Shown here one piece after another: positions 3,611 through 21,284 of a stretch of DNA of 21,284 bases. Positions within the stretch are counted from its first letter, which is position 1. Each line of letters begins with the position of its first letter. This stretch comes from a virus, in IMG/VR virus record IMGVR_UViG_3300042445_000750, positions 1-21,284 of that record; one strand, written 5' to 3'. Position numbers and translations under genes: made by a program. Below the pieces are notes generated by a model. It saw nothing but the letters and a program-made list of their open reading frames with translations. It was not told the DNA's origin and did not search any database.

Positions 3611-4129
3611 ATGAACATGTACTATTACCGCTCAAATTCTCCGCTTGCCTTAAAGATCAACAAAATCCTTCGGGACAGGAGAATGGAATCTCAGGACAAT
3701 AATCGGGAAAAAACAAAGATATATTATATCACAAGCTCAAACTGGCGTGGCTTGAGAGGAAGGAACGAATCGCCTCCTGAGTTAATGGACGCCCAGTTCC
3801 CATGGGCTCCGTTCAGATATCTGGACAGCATCATCCGTGAGGTAGAGTCGGAGTATGGCATCTCCTACGATGACATCAAGGGATCAAGGCGTTCTCCCAA
3901 AATGTCGTATGCCAGGCATGTTGTTTTCTATGTAGCCAAAGAAGCGACAAGCCTGAGCTATCCTGACATTGGCCGTCGCATGGGAGGCAAGGATCACACG
4001 ACGATCTTGCATGGATATCATCGGATTAAAAAGATCGTTGAGGCTGGCGGCGAGGAGGCTGATAGAATTATCGCCTTAAAGGAAAAGGCAAAGAACCGTC
4101 GCGCTCACAGCGGATATTGGGGCTGCTAG
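3611..4129 (+). CDS. DnaA domain IV (DNA-binding domain) protein without AAA+ domain
   Basis: Of 172 residues, about 69-150 match domain IV of the bacterial initiator DnaA. The helix YLDSIIREVESEYGIS (70-85), the GSRRSPKMSYARHVVFY stretch (91-107) and the signature GGKDHTTILHGYHRI (125-139) are all there; the last is the DnaA-box recognition helix. The AAA+ ATPase and the helicase-loading domain are missing, and the first 65 residues are unlike DnaA. It should therefore bind DnaA-box-like DNA without loading helicase, acting as a competitor, a phage origin binder or a regulator. It follows the GapR-like gene by 26 bases. ATG 3611 has only a weak AGAGAG site upstream; the in-frame ATG two codons on is an alternative. 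Confidence 0.85.
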   Translation: MNMYYYRSNSPLALKINKILRDRRMESQDNNREKTKIYYITSSNWRGLRGRNESPPELMDAQFPWAPFRYLDSIIREVESEYGISYDDIKGSRRSPKMSYARHVVFYVAKEATSLSYPDIGRRMGGKDHTTILHGYHRIKKIVEAGGEEADRIIALKEKAKNRRAHSGYWGC

Positions 4130-11994: not shown

Positions 11995-12050
11995 CCGGAT
12001 ATCCGAAGGCGCTCTTAGGTTATCCTTTTACTTTTAACAGGAATAAAACA

Positions 12051-13406
12051 ATGGCACATCCGTATAAATCAGAAGCGAAAGCTGGTCACAGCAAGAAGCT
12101 TGCGAGCTATGGCGCAAAGAAAGAAGCGAAGAACTGGGCTGGCGAAAAGGCGTTGAACACTGACCGTCAGGCCGGTATGGACATCATTGAAGAAGAGCCT
12201 TCGCTGTCCAAAAAGACCATGGACCGCATCATGCGCAAGGCTGGCGGTTCCGTTAAGGGCAAGGATGCTGTCAAGCGTCTGGATAAGGTTTCCCGCAAGG
12301 GCAAGCGCCTGAAGGCTGCCGATGGTCTCCCGTCCATTGAGGAGCAGCTTAAATCGGCTGAGCGTCTGAAGGAAATCCGCGCCCGCAAGATGCCGGAAGA
12401 GGGTCCGACGCGCGAGGAAGCCGAAAGCATCAATCGCAAGCAGCGTTATTCGATTGAGGATCTGGCTGCTCCCGGTCGCAAGAAGGGCGGCAAGGTCTCC
12501 CACATGGAATGGGAGCATTCCAAGAAAGATCTGGCCCAGGACCGCAAGCTGGCCAAAAAGCACGGCATGTCGCTTGAGAAGTGGGAAAAGTCAAAGCTTG
12601 ACGAAAAGCATGACAAGCAGCAGTCGACCGAAGGTCTCAAGAAGGGCGGTCGCGCCATGCGTGGCTCCGGTGGTCCGGTTGCTCCGAAGACGAAGTCCTA
12701 CACTTCTGAGAACAAAGTCACCAAATCGGCCAAATCCGGCGATCGCATGGGCGCTCTTACGGAGGCCGCAAAGACGACTGATCGGGTCAAGAAATTTGGC
12801 GGTGGTGGTCTGACTGAAGAAAAGTCCACGAGCAAGAAAGCCGGCAAAGCCACTAATCTGACGATTAACATTGGTGGTCCCGGTCAGGGTGGCGCGCAGC
12901 CGATGCCGCCGGCTCCTGCTATGCCGCCTGCTCCTCCGCCGCCTCCGCCCATGCCTCCGATGGGGATGCCGATGGGTGGTATGCCGCCTATGGGTCCGAT
13001 GGGTGGTGGTATGCCTCCTATGGGCGGAATGCCTCCGATGGGTGGCGCTCCGATGATGCGTCAGTCTGGTGGCCGCGTTGGCAAACAAATTGGTGGCGGC
13101 ATGATGGGCGCTTCGGCTCCGGGTTTCGCTAGCAATGTCCCGCCAATGGGCATGGGTTATGGCCAGCAGATGGATAATCAGCAGGTCAATCCGATGGATT
13201 TGATTGCTCTTGGCAATGCGCTTCGCAGCGGTGGCATGGGAATGGGAACGGGCATGGCTCCGCGCGGCTTCAAGAAGGGCGGTCGAGTCAATCCTGACGT
13301 TCCGGTCAAGCAGCCGGGTCGAACGGCTGAAGGCTACGCGAAAATGGATTATGGTTCTGTTAGCGGTAAGGGCCGTCGTCAGAAGATCCTTGCGCAGGAA
13401 GACTGA
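12051..13406 (+). CDS. Basic Lys/Gly- and Pro/Met/Gly-rich virion-cluster protein
   Basis: 451 residues in three parts. Residues 1-270 are very basic and helical, with the Lys-Gly-Gly motifs RKAGGSV (62-68), KKGGKV (144-149) and KKGGRA (197-202). Residues 284-336 are a low-complexity run of Pro, Met and Gly (repeats of MPPMG). Residues 337-451 carry SGGRV (339-343) and KKGGRV (408-413). The motif [15 protein letters not shown] (65-79) resembles modules in the proteins at 19337 and 19647. No enzyme motif is seen. Likely a virion internal or assembly protein, inferred from its place between the wall hydrolase and co-chaperonin genes. AGGAA precedes the ATG. Confidence 0.7.
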
Positions 13407-13408
13407 TC

Positions 13409-13561
13409 ATGGGCAGAAGGCCGAAGTTTGACAGGAATGAAAAGATCCTCGCAATGCGGCTTTCTGGCGTGACCTATAAAGAAATAGCCTCTGCCTTTGG
13501 GATAACTAAAGGCAGGGCTTTTCAAATTTGCAAATATATGATGGAAAAAAGAGGAGGCTAA
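13409..13561 (+). CDS. Small helix-turn-helix protein
   Basis: Fifty residues starting MGRRPKFDRNEKILAMRLSG. Residues 13-41 (ILAMRLSGVTYKEIASAF, then GITKGRAFQI) form a helix-turn-helix of the sigma-region-4 or resolvase type, with a turn at GIT. It begins two bases after the stop of the preceding gene, without a separate ribosome binding site of its own, and its 3' end contains the GAGGAGG that serves the next gene. Small HTH proteins at this place in phage genomes can be DNA-binding regulators or packaging factors; which one is not visible here. Confidence 0.65.
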   Translation: MGRRPKFDRNEKILAMRLSGVTYKEIASAFGITKGRAFQICKYMMEKRGG

Positions 13562-13562
13562 A

Positions 13563-13766
13563 ACGAATCTCGATCTGCGATTTTATCGGGAGTTGGAAGA
13601 CAGAATTTCCAGTGAATTAGAAAAGCTCGCTGCTGAATTAATCGCTGGAAAGGCAGTTGATTGGCCTGATTATAAAATGAGGGTTGGTCGGCTGAAGGGT
13701 ATGCAAGAAGCTCTTGCATTCGCAAAAGAAGTCCAAAAAGAAGTTTTGGGCGTTGAAAGGAAGTAA
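13563..13766 (+). CDS. Small helical protein with apparent ACG start
   Basis: A continuous frame encodes about 67 residues after an ACG: NLDLRFYRELEDRISSELEK, then a helical part with WPDYKMRVGRLKGMQEALAF, ending VLGVERK and TAA. The pattern resembles small phage proteins of head clusters that carry a DY(K)xxxGxxxG helix pair. GGAGG (13553-13557) lies five bases before ACG 13563, exactly where a start codon should be, but there is no ATG, GTG or TTG there. The first in-frame ATG (about 13677) would lose half the protein; the frame is open upstream only to 13542. It ends three bases before the co-chaperonin gene. An ACG start or a mutated ATG are both possible. Confidence 0.55.
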   Translation, partial: TNLDLRFYRELEDRISSELEKLAAELIAGKAVDWPDYKMRVGRLKGMQEALAFAKEVQKEVLGVERK

Positions 13767-13769
13767 GCC

Positions 13770-14186
13770 ATGCCGGCTTTACAGATGTTGCATGATCGCG
13801 ATCCAAAAGAAGCTCTTTTGGATAAGGTAGGCGATCTTTCTGGTATTGAGATATTTGGATCAGACGTTCTGGTTGCCATATATCGCAGGCCAGAAAAGAC
13901 AAAATCGGGTATTATTCTTGCGGATTCCACCAGATCAGAGGATCGGTGGCAATCAAAATGCTTTTTGGTCCTTAAATTAGGTCCGACAGCCTATCTGGAT
14001 GATGAGGGAAATCGTTTCAGGGACATTAAAGAGGGCGATTGGGTCGTAGCGCGCTGCTCGGACGGCTGGGAAGTCACTCTGAATACCCTGAAAACAGGAA
14101 TTTCCAAGGAAGACACGGTTTCTTGCCGGATTTTCTCCGATCACGCAATCCGCGCCCGTGTCGCTGACCCTGATTCCATCTACTGA
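13770..14186 (+). CDS. GroES-like co-chaperonin
   Basis: The 138-residue protein fits the Cpn10/GroES fold: SDVLVAIYRRPEKTKSGIIL (31-50) holds the first strands and the mobile loop (TKSGIIL resembles the TKSAGGIVL loop of GroES), and FLVLKLGPTAY (65-75) and IKEGDWVV (86-93) match the later barrel strands. GroES caps GroEL so that client proteins can fold; phages such as T4 carry their own cap (gp31) to fold the capsid protein. The phage protein is longer than GroES (about 97 residues), with extra residues at both ends. It lies in the head-assembly cluster before scaffold and capsid, which supports a capsid-folding role with host GroEL. Confidence 0.8.
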   Translation: MPALQMLHDRDPKEALLDKVGDLSGIEIFGSDVLVAIYRRPEKTKSGIILADSTRSEDRWQSKCFLVLKLGPTAYLDDEGNRFRDIKEGDWVVARCSDGWEVTLNTLKTGISKEDTVSCRIFSDHAIRARVADPDSIY

Positions 14187-14196
14187 GGGCTGAAAA

Positions 14197-15144
14197 ATGG
14201 AAGATATTGATGAGAATTTGGGTGAAACCGTCAAATTGGACGAAGATCCCTCTGTTGTTGTTGAGATTGAAGAGCCAAAATCCGAAAAAAAGGCTAAAAA
14301 CGAGCCTGATGAGCGTGAAGTTGCTCTTAATGAGATGCGCGCTCAGTATGAAGAGCAGAAAAAGCGCCTTGAGATTGAGCGTAGAGCCCGTGAACAGGCT
14401 GAACAATATGCCTATCAGCAGGCAAGGCAGGCTCACAGCGCCCGCGCAGAGGCAGAAGACAGCAATCTCCGCACTATTTTGAATGCTATCGCTGCCGACG
14501 AGCAGGTTGCGACAAATGCAGAGCGTGTTTATGCGGATGCTGTGGCTACAGGCGACACCGCACTGGCTGCCAAGGCACAGCGTGAGATGGCCAGAGTCGA
14601 GGCTCGATTGCTTCAGCTCGAAAATGGCAAGCGAGCGCTTGAGGAAAGGCTACAGACTACTGAAGGCAGGGTATCTGAGCCCGAAATGCCCAGGTTTGCG
14701 CCTCAACAGCCGGCTGATCCTGTTGAGATGTATGCTTCCCGGCTAACGCCCAAAAGCGCAGCCTGGCTAAGATCGCATCCTGAAGCGGCCAATTCCATTA
14801 ATAAGCTCACGGCGGCGCATACTGCTGCGGTAGAGCTTGAAGGAATTGAAGCAGAGTCTCCGGAATACTTTGCTTACATTGAGAGCAAGCTTGGTTATTC
14901 CGGTGGCGGGAGAGACAGCAAGAGCGAACCCAGAAGGTCTAAATCCAATATAAGTTCAGCGCCGGTTTCTTCGTCAAGCTCCATGATGGCTCCGCGTTCC
15001 AGCGGATCGTCTGGTTCTATTACGCTGAGCCCTGCTGAAGTTGAAATGGCCATGCTGGCTGAGCCTGATTTGCCGCGTGAGAAAGCTCTGGAAGCTTATG
15101 CCCGAAACAAACAGGCGCTTCTCCGCGAAGGCAAACTTAATTAA
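14197..15144 (+). CDS. Scaffold-like protein
   Basis: 315 residues. The N-terminus is acidic (MEDIDENLGETVKLDEDP), residues about 40-165 form a long coiled coil (EEQKKRLEIERRAREQAEQ and similar), residues about 168-230 are a folded part containing LTPKSAAWLRSHPEA, and a Ser-rich linker (about 245-270) leads to a basic helical tail ending EAYARNKQALLREGKLN. This layout fits an internal scaffolding protein, which guides capsid assembly and then leaves; the C-terminal helix usually touches the capsid protein. The place two genes before the cement and capsid genes supports it. GAGGGCTGAAAAA before the ATG is a moderate ribosome binding site. Sequence identity to any known scaffold cannot be checked here. 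Confidence 0.65.
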   Translation: MEDIDENLGETVKLDEDPSVVVEIEEPKSEKKAKNEPDEREVALNEMRAQYEEQKKRLEIERRAREQAEQYAYQQARQAHSARAEAEDSNLRTILNAIAADEQVATNAERVYADAVATGDTALAAKAQREMARVEARLLQLENGKRALEERLQTTEGRVSEPEMPRFAPQQPADPVEMYASRLTPKSAAWLRSHPEAANSINKLTAAHTAAVELEGIEAESPEYFAYIESKLGYSGGGRDSKSEPRRSKSNISSAPVSSSSSMMAPRSSGSSGSITLSPAEVEMAMLAEPDLPREKALEAYARNKQALLREGKLN

Positions 15145-15155
15145 GGATTTGGACA

Positions 15156-15707
15156 ATGACTGGTTTTGAAAACATCGACATCCCGGATATCCGTTCCTCT
15201 GAAGCCCGTGCTGCATCTCGCGAACCGAAGGCGAGGCCGAAACTGGACTCTACTTCGTCTTCTCTTGCGCGTGCGGAAGCCCGTTTGCGGGAAATCCGTG
15301 AAAGCCTGCCGGAGGGCGGTGCGCTTCGAGACAAATTCTGGGCTCCCCAAGCTCCGGCAGGATGGACTTATGAATGGAAAGTCCGGACGGTTATGAATGA
15401 AGAGCAATCATCGTATATCGTTGAATTGGCTCGAAATGGCTGGGAAGCTGTCCCGTTGAGCCGCCATCCTGACATGATGCCGGCAGGTTGGAAGGGCGAT
15501 ACGATTGAGGTTGAGGGTCTGGTTCTTATGGAGCGCCCGTCTGTTCTGACAGAAGAAGACCGCGCTGCTGAGGTCCGGGCTGCCCGTGAAGCTGTAGCGG
15601 TTAAAGAAGCCCAGCTTCGCGACGGGAGATCTGGCGATCTGGGCAAGCGCGAGGTTCAGCGCTTCTCGAAAAGCCGCTCTCCGATTAATATTCCGGGTGA
15701 CGAATAA
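15156..15707 (+). CDS. Conserved phage hypothetical protein
   Basis: 183 residues. The core WTYEWKVRTVMNEEQSSYIV (70-89) and ARNGWEAVPLSRHPDMMPAG (91-110), then VLMERP (122-127), has the look of a family found upstream of capsid genes in many podovirus-like phages. The N-terminal 60 residues are charged and probably disordered, and the C-terminus ends NIPGDE. No catalytic motif is visible. The gene follows the scaffold-like gene by 11 bases with GGACA before the ATG as a weak ribosome binding site, and is the last gene before the promoter and hairpin region at 15708-15915. A head-assembly or virion role is inferred from place alone. Confidence 0.65.
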   Translation: MTGFENIDIPDIRSSEARAASREPKARPKLDSTSSSLARAEARLREIRESLPEGGALRDKFWAPQAPAGWTYEWKVRTVMNEEQSSYIVELARNGWEAVPLSRHPDMMPAGWKGDTIEVEGLVLMERPSVLTEEDRAAEVRAAREAVAVKEAQLRDGRSGDLGKREVQRFSKSRSPINIPGDE

Positions 15708-15714
15708 GCAATTG

Positions 15715-15743
15715 TTGACTTGAAAGTCAATAAAGGCTAAATA
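15715..15743 (+). promoter_or_regulatory. Strong sigma-70-like promoter before capsid genes
   Basis: TTGACT (15715-15720), a 17-base spacer and TAAATA (15738-15743; read one base earlier as CTAAAT it resembles alphaproteobacterial -10 boxes). TTGACT and AGTCAA (15725-15730) form a 6-base inverted repeat across the -35, a possible operator. A transcript would start near 15750 and run at once into the two hairpins and terminator at 15758-15820. Confidence 0.5.
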
Positions 15744-15749
15744 TTCGCA

Positions 15750-15819
15750 GACTACGGAATTCTGTCTAGTAATAGACAAAAGAATTAGGTGGGGACCGCA
15801 AGGTTGGTCCCTCCTTTTA
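15750..15819 (+). ncRNA. Candidate small RNA (about 70 nt, two hairpins)
   Basis: The segment starts just behind the promoter at 15715-15743 and ends in a U tract. Hairpin one pairs AATTCT (15758-15763) with AGAATT (15781-15786) and GTCTA (15764-15768) with TAGAC (15773-15777), with a GTAA loop and a three-base AAA bulge. Hairpin two is GGGACC with GGTCCC (15792-15811) and is followed by TTTT. It contains no gene of useful length. Promoter, hairpins and terminator in this order give a short stable RNA, unless readthrough makes it the leader of the capsid mRNA (an attenuator). No RNA family is recognised. Confidence 0.4.
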
Positions 15820-15820
15820 T
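15787..15820 (+). terminator. Rho-independent terminator before capsid genes
   Basis: GGGACC (15792-15797) pairs with GGTCCC (15806-15811) across an eight-base loop; AGG (15787-15789) and CCT (15813-15815) can extend the stem past a small internal loop. TTTT (15815-15818) follows. It lies about 95 bases before the cement-like gene. The rest of 15821-15905 holds no recognisable gene or motif. Confidence 0.55.
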
Positions 15821-15915
15821 AAAGTCGATCCGCGCCGGATTGGCATTCATCTTCTCCGCTAAAATCTCCCACGCGCTGTTGGCGATTAGGCACTCTCTGA
15901 ATTCAGGAGGGTGTG

Positions 15916-16551
15916 TTGACAAACACCTTTGCTCCCTTCGGATTCCGTCCAGTTTCGACCAGCAATGGCCCGATCAACTGGCGTGTTTCCACTCGTCGCG
16001 TCGCGGCGGGAAATTCTACGCCCATCTATAAGGGCGACGTTGTCATGCCGGTAGTTGGCACGCCGACGGGTTATATTACGCTTGGCGTTCCTGGCACGAT
16101 TGCCGCGACGGTTCCTGCCGCCGGCATCTTCTGGGGCTGCCAGTATCTTTCGACGACGCAGAAGCGGACGGTCTGGTCTCAGTATTGGCCGGGTTCCGAT
16201 GCGACTGGCGACGTTATTGCGTTTGTGATCGACGATCCGAATGCTCGCTTTGTCGTTCAGACGAGCGGTTCTTCGTTCCAGATCACTGGCACTAACTCCG
16301 CCTTCACGTCGTCTCCGGTTGGCCAGTATGCCACGTTCAACGCGGGCGCTGGTTCGGCCACCACGCAGCAGTCTGGCCAGTATCTTGATACGGTCGGAAG
16401 CACGGCTGCCTATCCGTTCATTATCACGGACATGGTCATTGACCCGCCGGGAGCTAATGGCACGGATGCGACGAGCAACTACAACTATGTGGTTGTCGGC
16501 TTCAACAACGAGTGGCTGCGCAGCAATGCGGGCGTCACTGGCATCAGCTAA
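15916..16551 (+). CDS. Cement/decoration-like capsid protein
   Basis: 211 residues. The N-terminus TNTFAPFGFRPVSTSNG is typical of a widespread phage protein that lies just before the capsid gene and is described as a structural cement or head-stabilising protein. The body is beta-rich (KGDVVMPVVGTPTGYITLG, GIFWGCQYL, VWSQYWPGSDA), and the end NYVVVGFNNEWLRS fits that family. It should bind the outside of the mature head. The start is probably TTG 15916: GGAGG (15906-15910) lies five bases upstream, whereas GTG 15913 would be only two bases from it. CTGAATTCAG (15897-15906), a perfect palindrome, touches the ribosome binding site. Confidence 0.75.
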   Translation: MTNTFAPFGFRPVSTSNGPINWRVSTRRVAAGNSTPIYKGDVVMPVVGTPTGYITLGVPGTIAATVPAAGIFWGCQYLSTTQKRTVWSQYWPGSDATGDVIAFVIDDPNARFVVQTSGSSFQITGTNSAFTSSPVGQYATFNAGAGSATTQQSGQYLDTVGSTAAYPFIITDMVIDPPGANGTDATSNYNYVVVGFNNEWLRSNAGVTGIS

Positions 16552-16564
16552 GGAGTAGAGACCA

Positions 16565-17476
16565 ATGGCTGTTAATCTTAGCGCCATCCGCGATCTGCTC
16601 CTTCCGGGCCTTCGCGGTGTTGAGGGTAAGTATCCTCAGATCCCGAGTCAGTGGGACAAGGTCTTTGAAAAGGCCAAGTCCAACATGGCTCTCGAGCGTA
16701 CCGCTGAAATGCGTTACCTCGGCCTTGCCGCCATCAAGACTGAAGGCGGTGCGGTTAGCTTCGACAACAACGCTTCCGAGCGTTATGTCTATAATCAGGA
16801 GCATTACGAGATTGGTCTCGGCTACGCGATCACTCGTAAGGCGATTGATGACAACCTGTATAAGACCCAGTTCACGCCCACGAATCTTGGCCTGATCGAG
16901 TCCTTCGGTCAGACGAAGGAAATCTATGGCGCGAACATTCTTAACACGGCGACGACGTATAACTCGGCGGTCGGCGGTGACGGTGTTGCTCTCTGCTCCA
17001 CCTCGCATCCGATTGACGGCGGCGTTGTTGCTAATCGCCCGACTGTCGACGTTGATCTTAACGAAGCCTCGCTGCTTAACGGTATGATCAGCATTCGTCA
17101 GAACTTCAAGGACATCGCTGGCCTGAAGATGTTTGCGCGTGGTCGCAAGCTCATCATTCCGCCGACCCTTGAGCCGACGGCGATTCGCCTTACCAAGACG
17201 GAACTCCGTCCGGGCACGGCAAATAACGACGTCAATGCTATCCATACGACCGCAGGCGGTCTGCCGGAAGGCTACATGGTCAACGACTTCCTGACTTCGA
17301 CGAAGGCCTGGTTCCTTCTGACGAGCATCAAGGGTCTTGTCTACATGGAGCGTATTCCGTACGAAATGGATATGCAGGTAGACTTCACCACGGACAATTT
17401 GCTAGTTAAAGGATATGAAAGATACAGCTTCGGGTACTACAACTGGCGCTCTATCTTTGGAAGCTTCCCAACCTAA
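16565..17476 (+). CDS. Major capsid protein
   Basis: 303 residues. NTATTYNSAVGGDGVALCST and SHPIDGG (about 127-153) is the landmark of capsid proteins of the Mu-gpT-like/HK97-fold group; GRKLIIPPTLEPTA and the C-terminal ERIPYEMDMQVDF fit the P and A domains. TAAGGAG stands before ATG 16565. The coding style is uniform (GGC, CGT, GTC, CTT) until about 17390, after which the last 27 codons switch to CTA, GTT, GGA and AGA. This recoded end is partly repeated just downstream and is followed by a nuclease gene, suggesting that the 3' end was replaced by gene conversion. The protein should form the head shell with the cement-like protein. Confidence 0.88.
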   Translation: MAVNLSAIRDLLLPGLRGVEGKYPQIPSQWDKVFEKAKSNMALERTAEMRYLGLAAIKTEGGAVSFDNNASERYVYNQEHYEIGLGYAITRKAIDDNLYKTQFTPTNLGLIESFGQTKEIYGANILNTATTYNSAVGGDGVALCSTSHPIDGGVVANRPTVDVDLNEASLLNGMISIRQNFKDIAGLKMFARGRKLIIPPTLEPTAIRLTKTELRPGTANNDVNAIHTTAGGLPEGYMVNDFLTSTKAWFLLTSIKGLVYMERIPYEMDMQVDFTTDNLLVKGYERYSFGYYNWRSIFGSFPT

Positions 17477-17517
17477 TAAAAACAACTAGTTAAAGGACAT
17501 ATGAGAGATACATATTC
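17402..17517 (+). repeat. Imperfect direct repeat at 3' end of capsid gene
   Basis: CTAGTTAAAGGA followed by TATGAAAGATACA (17402-17426, inside the capsid gene) recurs at 17486-17512 as CTAGTTAAAGGA followed by CATATGAGAGATACA, behind the capsid stop. The copies differ by a two-base insertion and a few substitutions. The second copy lies in the short gap between capsid and nuclease genes. Confidence 0.75.
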
Positions 17518-17520
17518 TGC

Positions 17521-17549
17521 TTGACTGGCTCTAAAATGAAGGATAATTT
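17521..17549 (+). promoter_or_regulatory. Promoter of the HNH/EndoVII nuclease gene
   Basis: TTGACT (17521-17526), a 17-base spacer and TAATTT (17544-17549) stand before the nuclease gene. The -35 is identical to that at 15715. The -10 lies inside the inverted repeat at 17539-17561, so a bound repressor or the hairpin could influence expression. Confidence 0.5.
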
Positions 17550-17561
17550 ATGATTATCCTT
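17539..17561. repeat. Nine-base-pair inverted repeat in nuclease leader
   Basis: AAGGATAAT (17539-17547) and ATTATCCTT (17553-17561) form a perfect stem with a TTATG loop. It overlaps the -10 box and ends four bases before the ribosome binding site of the nuclease gene. It could be an operator, a leader hairpin or a weak end signal for the capsid transcript; no T run follows. Confidence 0.6.
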
Positions 17562-17574
17562 TATGGAGGCTGTC

Positions 17575-18228
17575 ATGAAACAGGAAGAGTTAACTTTAGA
17601 AGAGTTAAATAGCGTTCTCTCATATGATCCTGAAACTGGTGTTTTTGTTTGGAAAAAGGATGTTTCCAACAACGTAAAAAAAGGTTCGGTGGCGGGCACT
17701 TTTAAAAATTGCCGCCACCGGACTACGGATCAAATCAAATCTTACCTTTATGTGCGATATGACGGTAGGGAGATGGTTGGATCTAGGGTTGCTTGGCTGC
17801 TTAGTTACGGCGAATGGCCGGTTCAGTCAGTTCAATTCATAGATGGTGACACGACAAATCTGAGGTTAAATAATCTCAAATTGTCAAAGTTTAAATCTGT
17901 GGTTGTGAAGTCTGAGGGCCGTCGTAACTACAAAATGTCAAAAGATGCTCAACGCCATTACGGCCTTAAGCGATATTATGGCATTTCGGTTGCAGATTAT
18001 GCGGAAATGTTTCGCAAGCAAGATGGCAAGTGTGCAATTTGTCATAAGCCTGAAATTGGCAAAGATCGTCACGGGAACATTCGTGTTCTGGCAGTCGATC
18101 ACTGTCATGCTACTGGCGCTGTTCGGGAACTTCTTTGCTATGCCTGCAATAGTATGCTTGGGCAAGCCAAAGATAACATTGATGTTTTACTTGCTGGTGC
18201 TGAGTATCTCAAAAAGCATTCAGCTTAA
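17575..18228 (+). CDS. HNH/endonuclease VII-type free-standing nuclease
   Basis: 217 residues with two parts. Residues about 11-104 resemble the HNH_3 fold (YDPETGVFVWKKD, RVAWLLSYGEWP, IDGDTTNLRLNNLKL), but the usual Asp-His pair is Gln-Phe (Q87, F88), so this half probably only binds DNA. Residues about 134-214 are a recombination endonuclease VII domain: zinc pairs CAIC (153-156) and CYAC (188-191), catalytic VDHCHATGAVRELLC (174-188) and N192. It cuts DNA and is probably a homing-type nuclease sitting beside the capsid gene. GGAGG (17565-17569) lies five bases before ATG 17575, favouring it over ATG 17563. It has its own promoter and a different base style from the flanking virion genes. 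Confidence 0.85.
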   Translation: MKQEELTLEELNSVLSYDPETGVFVWKKDVSNNVKKGSVAGTFKNCRHRTTDQIKSYLYVRYDGREMVGSRVAWLLSYGEWPVQSVQFIDGDTTNLRLNNLKLSKFKSVVVKSEGRRNYKMSKDAQRHYGLKRYYGISVADYAEMFRKQDGKCAICHKPEIGKDRHGNIRVLAVDHCHATGAVRELLCYACNSMLGQAKDNIDVLLAGAEYLKKHSA

Positions 18229-18253
18229 CGCACAACCCCAAAGGATGTGAATA

Positions 18254-19312
18254 ATGGCACTTACCAATTTTCCCAACGGCATTACCTCTTTCGGTGTGCC
18301 GGTCGTTGGTGGCGTTGGCGGCATTCCGCTGACTGGCACCTGGTGGTTTGTTAACCCGGCTTCGGGTTCTGACGCCTATGATGGGCAGTCTCCCGAGACG
18401 CCTTTCCAGACGATTTATGCTGCCTATCAGGCTGCGGCTTCCGGCAATAACGACGTTATTGTCCTGATCGGCAACGGTGCGTCTAGCGGCACGGCGCGTC
18501 TTTCTCTTGCGAATGCGCAGGCGGCCAACAGCGCTGCGACGATCGGCTCTCTTATTTGGGCGAAGAATGCTCTTCACCTGATTGGCGAGGGTTCTCCGAC
18601 CGGCATCAGCAACCGCGCGCGTATGGCTCCGCCGACGACTTATACGGCTGCGACCTTCCTTAATGGTCAGTCGGTTGCTTCGACGCCGGTTGTGAAGGTC
18701 ACTGGCTCTGGATGTATCTTTGCGAACTTCCAGATCTGGGGTGGTTTCTCGACGGGTAATGCCGGTATGATTACCTGGCAGGACGAGGGCAACCGCAACT
18801 ATTACGCCAGCGTCCATTTTGCTGGTCAGTCTGACGCTGCTTCGGCTGGCGGCACGGCTTCGCGTTCGCTGGTTCTTTCCGGCGGCGGCGAGCATGTGTT
18901 TCAGGACTGCACCGTTGGCGTTGATACTGTTCAGCGCACGACGGGCGTTACGCGCACGCTTGAGTTCAAGGGCGGCACGGCTCGCAACTCGTTTCTTGGT
19001 TGCGTGTTCCCGGTCACGTTGGCGTCTGCTTCGGCTGCTTCTCCGACGATCTACACGGCTGCTGCGGCGGCAGCGGATCGCTGGCAGCGGTTTGAGGGCT
19101 GCACGTTCATCAATGCGGTTGGCTCGGGCTCAACGGCCCAGACGGCTCTTGTTGATCTGGCTGCCTCGACGGGCGGCGTTGTCATCCTGAAGAACTCGAC
19201 GGCTGTTGGTTCGACGGATCTGTTTGCGAATGCGACGACTGCCGGCCAGATGTATATTGACGGTGGCGCTCCGACTGCGGCTACCACGGCCCTTGCTGTT
19301 AATCCGGCCTAA
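18254..19312 (+). CDS. Beta-helix virion protein
   Basis: 352 residues. The opening GTWWFVNPASGSDAYDGQSP (28-47) and TPFQTIYAAYQAA (49-61) is the usual start of a right-handed parallel beta-helix of the pectate-lyase type. The rest is rich in Gly, Ala, Ser and Thr with short strands (HLIGEGSP, CIFANFQIWGG, HVFQDCTV, NSFLGCVF, QRFEGCTFIN), which fit successive helix turns. No catalytic residues of a lyase are evident, so a structural role (head spike, fibre or tail component) is more likely than an enzyme. AAAGGATGTG precedes ATG 18254. Codon choice is as strongly biased as in the capsid gene, suggesting high expression. Confidence 0.7.
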   Translation: MALTNFPNGITSFGVPVVGGVGGIPLTGTWWFVNPASGSDAYDGQSPETPFQTIYAAYQAAASGNNDVIVLIGNGASSGTARLSLANAQAANSAATIGSLIWAKNALHLIGEGSPTGISNRARMAPPTTYTAATFLNGQSVASTPVVKVTGSGCIFANFQIWGGFSTGNAGMITWQDEGNRNYYASVHFAGQSDAASAGGTASRSLVLSGGGEHVFQDCTVGVDTVQRTTGVTRTLEFKGGTARNSFLGCVFPVTLASASAASPTIYTAAAAAADRWQRFEGCTFINAVGSGSTAQTALVDLAASTGGVVILKNSTAVGSTDLFANATTAGQMYIDGGAPTAATTALAVNPA

Positions 19313-19336
19313 TCCCAAAGATTAAGGAGATAGAAT

Positions 19337-19600
19337 ATGAAAGCTCATTACAAGAAGGGTGGCTCGGTTGAGCCCCAGGGCAAGATGGTTGCCAACCCGA
19401 CGCCGTCCGATGTTTACGCTGGCGAAGATTCGGAAGTTGTGAAGTCTGCCAAGAAGCGCAAGAAGGGCGGCAAGGTTTGTGGTCCGATGGCCATGAAGCG
19501 CGCTGACCGCAAGCCGCGCAAGTCTGGCGGCAAGGTTTCGGCGGGCTGGGATGCGGCCTCCACGACGCACAATCCTCCGGGCCGTAACCTGGTTGATTGA
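19337..19600 (+). CDS. Small Lys-Gly-Gly motif protein A
   Basis: 87 residues, very basic, with three motifs: YKKGGSV (5-11), KKGGKV (42-47) and KSGGKV (62-67). The stretch GGKVCGPMAMKRADRKPRKS (44-63) resembles segments in the proteins at 12051 and 19647. It is otherwise low in hydrophobic residues, so it is probably disordered or folds on binding. Highly biased codons and the AAGGAG before ATG suggest strong expression. The gene is directly followed by a strong terminator. I infer a virion or packaging-related part, but no function is proven. Confidence 0.7.
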   Translation: MKAHYKKGGSVEPQGKMVANPTPSDVYAGEDSEVVKSAKKRKKGGKVCGPMAMKRADRKPRKSGGKVSAGWDAASTTHNPPGRNLVD

Positions 19601-19609
19601 TTATGGATT

Positions 19610-19635
19610 GGCCCGCTTCGGCGGGCCTTTCTTTT
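19610..19635 (+). terminator. Strong rho-independent terminator
   Basis: GGCCCGC (19610-19616), a TTCG tetraloop (19617-19620) and GCGGGCC (19621-19627) form a perfect 7-base-pair stem, followed by TTTCTTTT (19628-19635). It closes the capsid and beta-helix transcript. The next gene's GGAGG begins only two bases behind the T run. Confidence 0.92.
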
Positions 19636-19646
19636 CGGAGGTTGTT

Positions 19647-19904
19647 ATGGCTGAGAAATGGATCCAGTCAGCAATAAAAAAACCTGGGGCGCTGCGTAAA
19701 TCGCTGAAGGTTAAAGAGGGTGAAACAATTCCGACCGGCAAGCTTAAAAAGGCTTCGCATTCGGAAAACCCGACGCTTGCCAAGCGGGCGAATCTGGCTT
19801 TGACTTTGAAAAAACTCAATAAGCGCCATGGCGGTCAGGTTGACGGCGCGGTTTCGGCCAAAAGGCTGGATCGCAAGCCGCGTGCTGGCGGTGGATGCTA
19901 CTAA
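19647..19904 (+). CDS. Small Lys-Gly-Gly motif protein B
   Basis: 85 residues starting MAEKWIQSAIKKPGALRKSL. The N-terminal part (WIQSAIKKPGALRKSLKVKE, then ETIPTGKLKKA, LAKRANLALTLKKL) is a small basic helical domain known from several phages and prophages. The tail HGGQVDGAVSAKRLDRKPRA (about 62-81) ends GGGCY and shares the KR(L/A)DRKPR segment with the protein at 19337. ATG 19647 is preceded by CGGAGG, a strong ribosome binding site, and is preferred to a longer frame beginning inside the upstream gene. It lies directly after the terminator, so it needs readthrough or another promoter. Confidence 0.72.
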   Translation: MAEKWIQSAIKKPGALRKSLKVKEGETIPTGKLKKASHSENPTLAKRANLALTLKKLNKRHGGQVDGAVSAKRLDRKPRAGGGCY

Positions 19905-19915
19905 GGAATTAGATC

Positions 19916-20860
19916 ATGCAGGCGAAAACTGTTTCTGTTGGCCCGGTTACAGCTGCGGTCGCCAATCAGATTTGTGCGTCTCAGACGCCTTACGCGGGCC
20001 AGATGGTGATTAATGGCGCGGGTGCTACATTTAGCATCAATAACGTCGCGGCATCGCAAAATCCTTCTGGGGCTGGAAATCTCACTCTTGCCTCTTCTGT
20101 TGTCATGTTCGCCCAGCCTCGTTATGTTTATGTAACCAGCGCTGGTAATGATACGGCATTTACGTTCACGATTACTGGCACGGATACTAATTACAATCCT
20201 TTATCTGAAACGATTACGGGAGCTAATGCCAAGGCTCGTGTGACAACAAAGCAGTTTACGACTGTTAGCTCTGTTTATGTTAGTGGCAATGCCGGATCTG
20301 TTCAGGTCGGTTCTTTTGTCAGCGCTTCATTTACTGGATCGACGGCCCGTCAGGTTACGATTACACCGACCGGAAATGAAAGCCTGAATACATTTGTTGT
20401 CACTGGCACAGATGTGAATGGCAATTTCATGTCAGAAACGGTGGCCGGCAAGAATGCTGTCGCCAGCACGACAAACAGTTATTTCTCCACGGTTACGAGC
20501 ATCACGATCGCCAATGATGCTGCTAATGCTATTACGGCAGGCATGACCAATACGGCTGCTTCTCCGTGGGTCAGGCTTGATGATTTTGCTCCCAGCAATA
20601 TCTCAATACAGTGTAGTGTGAGCGGATCCGCAACATACACCGTTCAGTCCACGCTCGACGATCCAAACGATCCTTTTAGTCCGGTTCCGATTGGCAACAT
20701 GACTTGGGTCAATACGTCAGATACGGCGGTTGTTGGCGCTATCGCCACGCAGCAGAGCAACTTCCTGTTTGCTCCCAAGTTTGCCCGCGTTGTCATTACT
20801 ACGACCAGCACCGGGTCTGTTAAATCGACGTTCCTGCAAAGCTCAAATGGTCCGATCTGA
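19916..20860 (+). CDS. Beta-rich virion protein with two tandem domains
   Basis: 314 residues, rich in Thr, Ser, Ala, Val and Asn. Two related segments of about 65 residues follow each other: one (about 69-133) contains FTITGTDTNYNPLSETITG, the other (about 145-210) contains FVVTGTDVNGNFMSETVAG. Each has alternating hydrophobic residues, as in an Ig-like beta-sandwich. Residues about 215-314 form a third domain with WVRLDDFAPSNISIQCSVSG, ending SSNGPI. AAGGAAT precedes ATG 19916. The stop codon overlaps the next start as TGATG. A tail, neck or fibre-base component is likely; no enzyme motif is seen. Confidence 0.65.
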   Translation: MQAKTVSVGPVTAAVANQICASQTPYAGQMVINGAGATFSINNVAASQNPSGAGNLTLASSVVMFAQPRYVYVTSAGNDTAFTFTITGTDTNYNPLSETITGANAKARVTTKQFTTVSSVYVSGNAGSVQVGSFVSASFTGSTARQVTITPTGNESLNTFVVTGTDVNGNFMSETVAGKNAVASTTNSYFSTVTSITIANDAANAITAGMTNTAASPWVRLDDFAPSNISIQCSVSGSATYTVQSTLDDPNDPFSPVPIGNMTWVNTSDTAVVGAIATQQSNFLFAPKFARVVITTTSTGSVKSTFLQSSNGPI

Positions 20861-21183
20861 TGACTGGCATATCTGCCGGCGGCGGATTATCGTATTCCAG
20901 TGATACAAGCCTAAAGCTTGGATATACTTCCGTTGCCAGCAATTATACAATTAATCAGGTTGATTTTGTGATAGACTGCTCGGCCAACACGTTTACAGTC
21001 ACACTTCCTACGGCTGCCGGTATATCCGGAAAGCAATTTGTGATTAAAAATAGCGGGACTGGCGTCATCACGGTTGATGCGAACGGATCAGAAACAATTG
21101 ATGGATACGCTAACTTTGTATTATCTACAAAGGGAGAGGCCATCTGGGTTGTTTCTGATGGCGCTAACTGGAAGGTGATCTAA
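20860..21183 (+). CDS. Small fibre-domain protein
   Basis: 107 residues. The core FVIDCSANTFTVTLPTAAG (36-54), then KQFVIKNSGTGVITVDANG, ETIDGYANFVLSTKGEAIW, and VVSDGANWKVI at the very end is a beta-structured module found in many phage fibre and appendage proteins, here standing alone. The ATG overlaps the preceding stop (TGATG) and its stop overlaps the next start (TAATG), so three successive genes are coupled. It should be part of a fibre, spike or connector assembly. Function by homology is only a family-level call. Confidence 0.7.
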   Translation: MTGISAGGGLSYSSDTSLKLGYTSVASNYTINQVDFVIDCSANTFTVTLPTAAGISGKQFVIKNSGTGVITVDANGSETIDGYANFVLSTKGEAIWVVSDGANWKVI

Positions 21184-21284
21184 TGTCCTTCCATATTGCT
21201 CCAAACCCTCATGCGACATTTGTCTCAACTCAAGATCAGGTGATAGCTAATCCTACCCTTGCTCAGGTTGTTACCTTTAATACA
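21183..21284 (+). CDS. Start of another virion protein (cut by window end)
   Basis: The frame begins at ATG 21183, overlapping the preceding stop as TAATG, and is open to the last base (34 codons). It reads MSFHIAPNPHATFVSTQDQV followed by IANPTLAQVVTFNT. The last part resembles the first strands of jelly-roll or fibre-type phage proteins. The rest is outside the window, so the product cannot be named. Confidence 0.65.
   Translation, partial: MSFHIAPNPHATFVSTQDQVIANPTLAQVVTFNT

Follow-up and report, generated by a model that had tools for sequence, protein, structure and literature searches.

What RNA, if any, is encoded in the gap preceding the head genes of this phage? The window, by which we mean the whole 21,284-base virus record analysed here, carries genes for terminase, portal, a GroES-like protein and a major head protein according to PHROG and Pfam matches. 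From 15707 to 15913 no gene is evident and only mechanical ORFs overlap the stretch. This agrees with a first-pass annotation, which had placed a promoter, two hairpins and a terminator here and had proposed either a free trans-acting small RNA of about 70 nt or an attenuator leader. Upstream of the gap, the frame at 14197–15144 is labelled scaffold from gene order alone. The first gene downstream is likely to encode a cement protein: the predicted structure of its product is mostly beta (mean pLDDT 85), and the weak best matches of this model among solved structures are capsid chains of Sf11, T1 and TW1 (E 0.03–0.11, none at E 0.001 or below), the entry for the matched TW1 chain naming a capsid stabilising protein. 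Searches of the cement profile and of the capsid against the sequences of solved structures gave no match each at E values up to 1. Elsewhere in the window, the frame 3611–4129 encodes a DnaA C-terminal helix-turn-helix domain (Pfam, E 2.8e-23). The frame 17563–18228, between the capsid gene and the next gene, presumably resembles an HNH endonuclease; in many relatives only a distant match to it, or none, was found in the fetched stretch.

A capsid search of viral contigs yielded 80 loci, and named-phage records and three cement-protein searches brought the collection to 248 including the window. The cement start was placed in 239 of these, 232 had at least 110 nt upstream, and 137 remained at less than 95% identity over 110 nt. 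After 11 distant named phages were set aside, 126 non-redundant leaders were retained. They were assigned by the nearest reference cement protein to group A (28 leaders, like the window) or group B (98 leaders). In this set the window is represented by L002 (the window type), which differs by one base, located in hairpin b. The following features were mapped:

15715–15743, + strand: sigma-70-like promoter, TTGACT-17-TAAATA; from sequence, weak alone, positional match in L006 and L009
15758–15786, + strand: hairpin a, bulged; from the fold, with hairpins of different sequence at the same place in L006, L009, L027 and L041
15787–15815, + strand: hairpin b, formerly annotated as terminator; from the fold, with a hairpin at the same place in the same four relatives
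15824–15844, + strand: distal constant-loop hairpin, loop C(GCGCC)G at 15831–15837; in 111 of 126 leaders, with covariation
15858–15891, + strand: proximal constant-loop hairpin, loop C(GCGCT)G at 15872–15878; from the fold, in 98 of 126 leaders at ≥4 net pairs
15893–15909, + strand: hairpin pairing with part of the Shine-Dalgarno sequence (AGGAGG, 15905–15910); from the fold
15910–15927, + strand: small hairpin whose loop contains the start codon; from the fold of the window sequence only
15916–16551, + strand: cement-like protein, first gene of the operon; likely start TTG at 15916, from alignment to relatives, most with an M-A-N start
16565–17476, + strand: major capsid protein gene; PHROG 371 major head protein, E 4.5e-14

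The promoter-like site and the upstream hairpins

Sequence and fold agree with the earlier placement of TTGACT (15715–15720), the 17 nt spacer, TAAATA (15738–15743) and both hairpins. Taken alone, the promoter-like site is inconspicuous: its −10 box matches TATAAT in three of six letters, its score of 12.5 compares to a mean of 12.1 for shuffled group A leaders, and it is absent from the list produced by a generic promoter scan. The search for promoter-like sites extended up to 400 nt from the start codon in group A and up to 150 nt in group B. The site gains support from L006 and L009, which carry TTGACA-17-TAAAAT at −201 and −202 from the start codon, the same place as in the window type (−201). 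In 13 of the 28 group A leaders, the window not among them, the highest-scoring −10-like box sits within or next to the loop of an inverted repeat whose sequence varies (ATGTCGGCGG-AATATAAT-CCGCCGACAT in one case), and outscores the best of 20 shuffles. These sites are found in L044 (2600–2627) and in the leaders of L006, L009, L011, L013, L021, L023, L027, L028, L029, L036, L041 and L045.

The stretch 15745–15822 folds at −23.8 kcal/mol compared to −16.3 (sd 3.2) in 200 dinucleotide shuffles (z −2.35). Seven of the 200 shuffles fold equally well, and the signal is modest by itself. Hairpins a and b are not unique to the window copy, given their counterparts in four relatives, which share their place but not their sequence. 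Together, the promoter-like site and hairpins a and b look like the first part of a 5’ leader of about 170 nt belonging to the cement/capsid operon.

Twin hairpins with a constant loop and their distance to the start codon

The strongest and conserved signal, which the first-pass annotation overlooked, is located just downstream of its coordinates, at 15824–15910, and consists of two constant-loop hairpins and the Shine-Dalgarno hairpin. The stems of the twin hairpins vary with compensating changes, the loop C(NCGNY)G is fixed, and the hairpins lie about 40 nt apart. Among the 126 leaders the distal hairpin (−95 to −70) was found in 111, the proximal hairpin (−55 to −35) in 98 and both in 91, compared to means of 0.6, 0.4 and 0.0 over 20 rounds of dinucleotide shuffling. 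One or both hairpins fall below threshold in 35 leaders, some of which show a weaker or differently looped hairpin and others no clear hairpin. The window type belongs to these 35: its distal hairpin passes, while the stem of its proximal hairpin contains internal mismatches, scores 3 and is not counted among the 98. L112 and L117 depart from the usual distance of about 40 nt, with 24 nt between the hairpins, whose stems have eight and seven net pairs. In 10 of the 28 group A leaders a third hairpin with a constant loop was seen around −145 to −180 (≥4 net pairs).

Without any structure supplied, RNAalifold recovers both hairpins in two leader alignments. Alignment A2 contains all 28 group A leaders, and A3 contains 48 rows chosen by hand from the 98 group B leaders with preference for well-formed ones. 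Paired cells amount to 94.0% in one alignment and 90.9% in the other, compared to 78.4% and 73.6% after shuffling, the percentage for A3 being optimistic because of this choice; covariation reaches 0.603 and 0.675 compared to 0.294 and 0.316. None of 500 shuffles attained the observed values of either measure. When the structure was slid along the alignment as a control, 32–64% of cells were paired. G.U combinations are far more frequent than A.C combinations (81 vs 14 in A3; 44 vs 9 in A2, with the loop-closing pairs left out), which argues for selection on the mRNA-sense RNA of the + strand and not on a DNA cruciform. Judged by these alignments, a conserved structure that would act in the sense strand is well supported.

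The order of elements is distal hairpin, proximal hairpin, Shine-Dalgarno hairpin and start codon. In the two leader groups the distal and proximal hairpins are spaced by 41.5 (sd 1.4) and 39 (sd 3.0) nt, and the proximal hairpin is located at −46 (sd 2.2) and −43 (sd 2.6) from the start codon. The hairpins were searched for within fixed intervals of 29 and 22 nt, where an even distribution would give spreads well above the 1.4–4.0 nt observed. The median distance from the −10 box to the distal hairpin, by contrast, is 157 nt (sd 32, 15 leaders) in group A and 16 nt (sd 10, 32 leaders) in group B, when considering only leaders with a good promoter score. The hairpins are thus fixed in relation to each other and to the start codon, whereas the promoter moves.

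Compared to controls, the Shine-Dalgarno sequence is predicted to be less accessible in 23 of 27 leaders of group A and in 91 of 98 of group B, with unpaired probabilities of 0.29 vs 0.465 and 0.164 vs 0.501, the controls being mononucleotide shuffles of the upstream stretch only. By prediction, the leader therefore combines a structure at fixed distance to the start codon with an occluded Shine-Dalgarno sequence, as in a cis-acting translational leader. The plan common to the relatives comprises an upstream terminator in many of them, a sigma-70-like promoter, the C-NCGNY-G hairpins and then the Shine-Dalgarno sequence.

Concerted change of the loop letters and a proposed role

For listing loop types, hairpins were chosen by pairing. 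Group A loops read GCGCY or ACGCU, mostly without a bulge and with the outer loop bases pairing. Group B loops are mainly CCGGY, TCGGY, CCGTT, ACGCT and ACGAT, and most are followed by one extra base on the 3’ side. We also read by eye 13 loci from bacterial assemblies, the short contigs among which may be free phage. Both hairpins carry GCGCC in a Bosea MAG (L251), ACGAT in an Anaerolineales MAG contig (L249) and CCGTT in L252 and L253, while L250, L254, L257 and L259 show CCGG or TCGG types. A further loop class, GGGCC in both hairpins, is present upstream of 4001 in Rhizobium sp. BK316 (L255) and a Rhizobiales isolate (L256). L258 and L260 are not clear fits, and L261 has no usable start.

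The fourth loop base is identical in both hairpins in 102 of 103 leaders (GG 68, CC 24, TT 9, AA 1), and one leader has AC; in L211, GCGAT occurs together with ACGCT. On a tree of the first gene’s protein this base requires 11 and 9 changes in the two loops, L054, a false pick, having been left out of the proximal set. With regard to G versus non-G, both loops shift in the same direction in all five supported independent contrasts (p 0.0625, the lowest value that five contrasts allow); for the single letters, the contrasts agree in 3/3 for C, 3/3 for T and 1/2 for A, the proximal loop being unchanged in the other A contrast (L211).

Among 211 pairs of leaders whose cement proteins are at least 80% identical, base 4 has changed in neither loop in 193, in both loops in 18 and in one loop only in none; the 18 switching pairs overlap and are not independent, 10 of them involving L224. 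We aligned eight of these pairs in detail. In six the DNA match ends no more than 22 nt from the start codon and no alignment of the leaders is possible, whereas in L078/L211 and L208/L224 it runs through the leader, and the proximal hairpins of L078 and L211 differ mainly in the loop. Both loops switch while the cement and capsid proteins stay about 80–92% identical, which disfavors simple autogenous control by either protein.

The balance of capsid, cement and scaffold in tailed DNA phages is usually credited to promoter and ribosome-site strength. We consider it somewhat better than an even chance that the leader described here acts in cis to control translation of the cement/capsid mRNA and is read as a twin site. 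Translational control is suggested by the position of the hairpins and the predicted occlusion of the Shine-Dalgarno sequence, and a trans partner by the concerted change of both loops. The two loops, separated by about 40 nt and lying about 45 nt ahead of the start codon, would be read together by one putative partner, most probably an RNA-binding protein that the phage encodes and that works as a dimer or higher oligomer. Its binding would change the access of ribosomes to the occluded Shine-Dalgarno sequence and could in this way, by repression or activation, set the output of cement and capsid. Hairpins a and b would represent upstream, faster-evolving parts of the same leader.

More tentatively, the twin hairpins may define an undescribed class of phage leader RNA, in which the shared loop serves as a lineage-specific ‘address’ for a phage-encoded factor metering capsid and cement. 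This address (GCGC, CCGG, CCGU, ACGC, ACGA, GGGCC) would change simultaneously in both hairpins when phages diverge or swap leaders. If true, a broad group of mostly uncultured phages would possess a dedicated RNA control point before the head genes, and the concerted loop changes would provide a natural series for finding the partner and its recognition code.

The main rival explanation holds that no trans partner is required and that the loops contact each other, by kissing or within a shared tertiary fold, the resulting shape gating translation or shielding the 5’ end. The commonest letters, GCGC and CCGG, as well as the Rhizobium-type GGCC are self-complementary, both loops change together, and the leader could be swapped as one cassette without protein change, a behavior fitted by six of the eight switching pairs aligned in detail. 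However, CCGTT/CCGTT (9 leaders), ACGCT/ACGCT (2) and ACGAT/ACGAT (1) allow at most central CG/CG pairs. Kissing loops as the sole explanation fail for CCGTT and ACGAT, and we regard loop contact in place of a partner as unlikely.

Alternative roles, related systems and occurrence

The leader of phage T7 gene 10 and the 5’-terminal stem-loops of stable mRNAs illustrate a further possibility, that of a stability or translation-enhancer leader of a highly expressed late mRNA with no specific ligand. Where group B leaders have a good promoter score (32 cases), the distal hairpin would indeed lie near the 5’ end of the mRNA, the median distance of its center from the −10 box being 16 nt. In the 15 such group A leaders, however, the median is 157 nt, and a general stabiliser needs no fixed loops whose letters change together in both hairpins. 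We consider this role improbable.

By analogy, the leader could also act on the transcribing polymerase and suppress termination in the late operon. The putRNAs of HK022 are about 70 nt long and form two stem-loops downstream of phage promoters (PMC9378689), and the phage leader resembles them, as they are described there, in having two stem-loops behind a promoter-like site. According to this account put acts on early operons via RNA polymerase, whereas the position of the hairpins considered here is tied more to the start codon than to the promoter and the Shine-Dalgarno sequence belongs to the arrangement. As putR itself is located about 270 nt from its start site, the first of these differences carries less weight. 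A put-like mode of action still appears quite doubtful to us.

As a transcription attenuator, the leader would use hairpin b as a conditional terminator. In the window the stem GGGGACC/GGTCCC is followed by TTTAT, so that the stem and a T-rich tail are present much as originally annotated, and a terminator scan lists the hairpin. The same scan region, 12000–21284, contains 13 terminator-like sites compared to 10.4 ± 3.6 after shuffling, no clear excess. The sequence after the second hairpin reads TTATGAGCC in L006 and L009, ATTTGCTCT in L027 and ACTCGCCGC in L041, and the T tail is not kept in relatives. Within −165 to −75 a terminator-like hairpin is present in three of the 28 group A leaders (window type, L024 and L036; 0.8 expected) and lacking in the other 25, which is not the retention of stem and T run characteristic of an intrinsic terminator or small-RNA 3’ end. 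In group B such hairpins are frequent (56 of 98 leaders; 5.4 expected), but in the examples read they end the upstream gene, before the promoter-like site. Of the two earlier proposals, the attenuator leader is the nearer one in being a leader; what is conserved, though, is a translational arrangement with the Shine-Dalgarno sequence in a hairpin and not a terminator, and we judge attenuation highly improbable. A free trans-acting small RNA from 15750 to 15819 is in our view extremely improbable: the window copy does have a promoter-like site, a hairpin and a second hairpin with a TTTAT tail, but the terminator is not kept and the leader continues through covarying hairpins to the start codon. 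The broader proposal of a structured regulatory RNA between scaffold-side and cement/capsid genes, behind a promoter-like site shared with near relatives, is supported.

Translational operators are known for the coat proteins of RNA phages. Another phage translational operator is that of T4 gp32 (PMC535899). As far as these operators are described, the translational leader proposed here is alike in being a structured mRNA element that adjoins the ribosome-binding site of a phage gene, and it differs in having two matched loops instead of one site, in belonging to the head operon of a dsDNA phage and in having a putative binder. In ANTAR targets two small hairpins stand in tandem, their stems variable and certain residues of their terminal loops conserved; both hairpins are needed and are read by a dimerising protein. 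The loops have six nucleotides with A1 and G4, and the linker is 5–12 nt in E. faecalis eut leaders, where the elements lie beside terminators (PMC3369931). Measured against this description, the likeness lies in a dual-hairpin recognition element with variable stems and conserved loops. The phage leader differs by its NCGNY pentaloops closed by C-G, where ANTAR loops are hexanucleotides, by a distance of about 40 nt between the hairpins, by its position before head genes and by loop letters that vary by lineage; neither GCGCY, CCGGY, TCGGY, CCGTT, ACGCT, ACGAT nor any other type listed has both A1 and G4.

Comparative genomics has also predicted structured phage RNAs such as c4 antisense RNA, manA and wcaG (PMC2864571). 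The present leader resembles these as a predicted structured RNA in phage genomes; the word capsid is absent from the text of that paper, and the leader sequences searched match no Rfam 15 family. At gathering threshold the Rfam 15 families gave no match in the window, in 8 relatives and in 12 further relatives, and at a loose threshold only snoRNA-type matches with E 1.2–3.6. No description of the leader was found among the titles and abstract beginnings searched, in Rfam, or in passages of PMC8040213 and PMC2864571.

A nucleotide search with 15700–16600 gave no match among named phages. The twin-hairpin element was found in none of 12 named distant phages, in which the annotated gap before the equivalent gene is 6–82 nt, whereas one named record, MW202675 (L082), carries it. 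Model R2 recovered 30 of 32 chosen held-out relatives at E <1e-5, some of which are close to A3 members or to one another, and missed L048 (0.12) and L129. At the same threshold it matched seven of 12 loci from bacterial assemblies. Of the 23 leftover, odd group B leaders, 10 were matched, L109 reached 0.0005 and 12 were missed even at E 0.01. In 16 viral records R2 gave one strong match each in nine, a weak match (E 0.07) in one and none in six; six of the seven records without a strong match belong to group A, for which R2 was not built, and the seventh is L129.

Outside the leaders, hairpin copies with at least 6 net pairs in 813 kb show no general excess on the + strand (18, compared to 27 on the − strand). 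Four of the 18 + strand copies precede a small ORF ahead of the GroES-like gene, at four of 39 loci examined. In each case a single like-looped hairpin is located at a similar distance from the GroES-like start (about −252 in L020, −255 in L021, −248 in L028 and −251 in L033), between a proline-rich gene and the small ORF.
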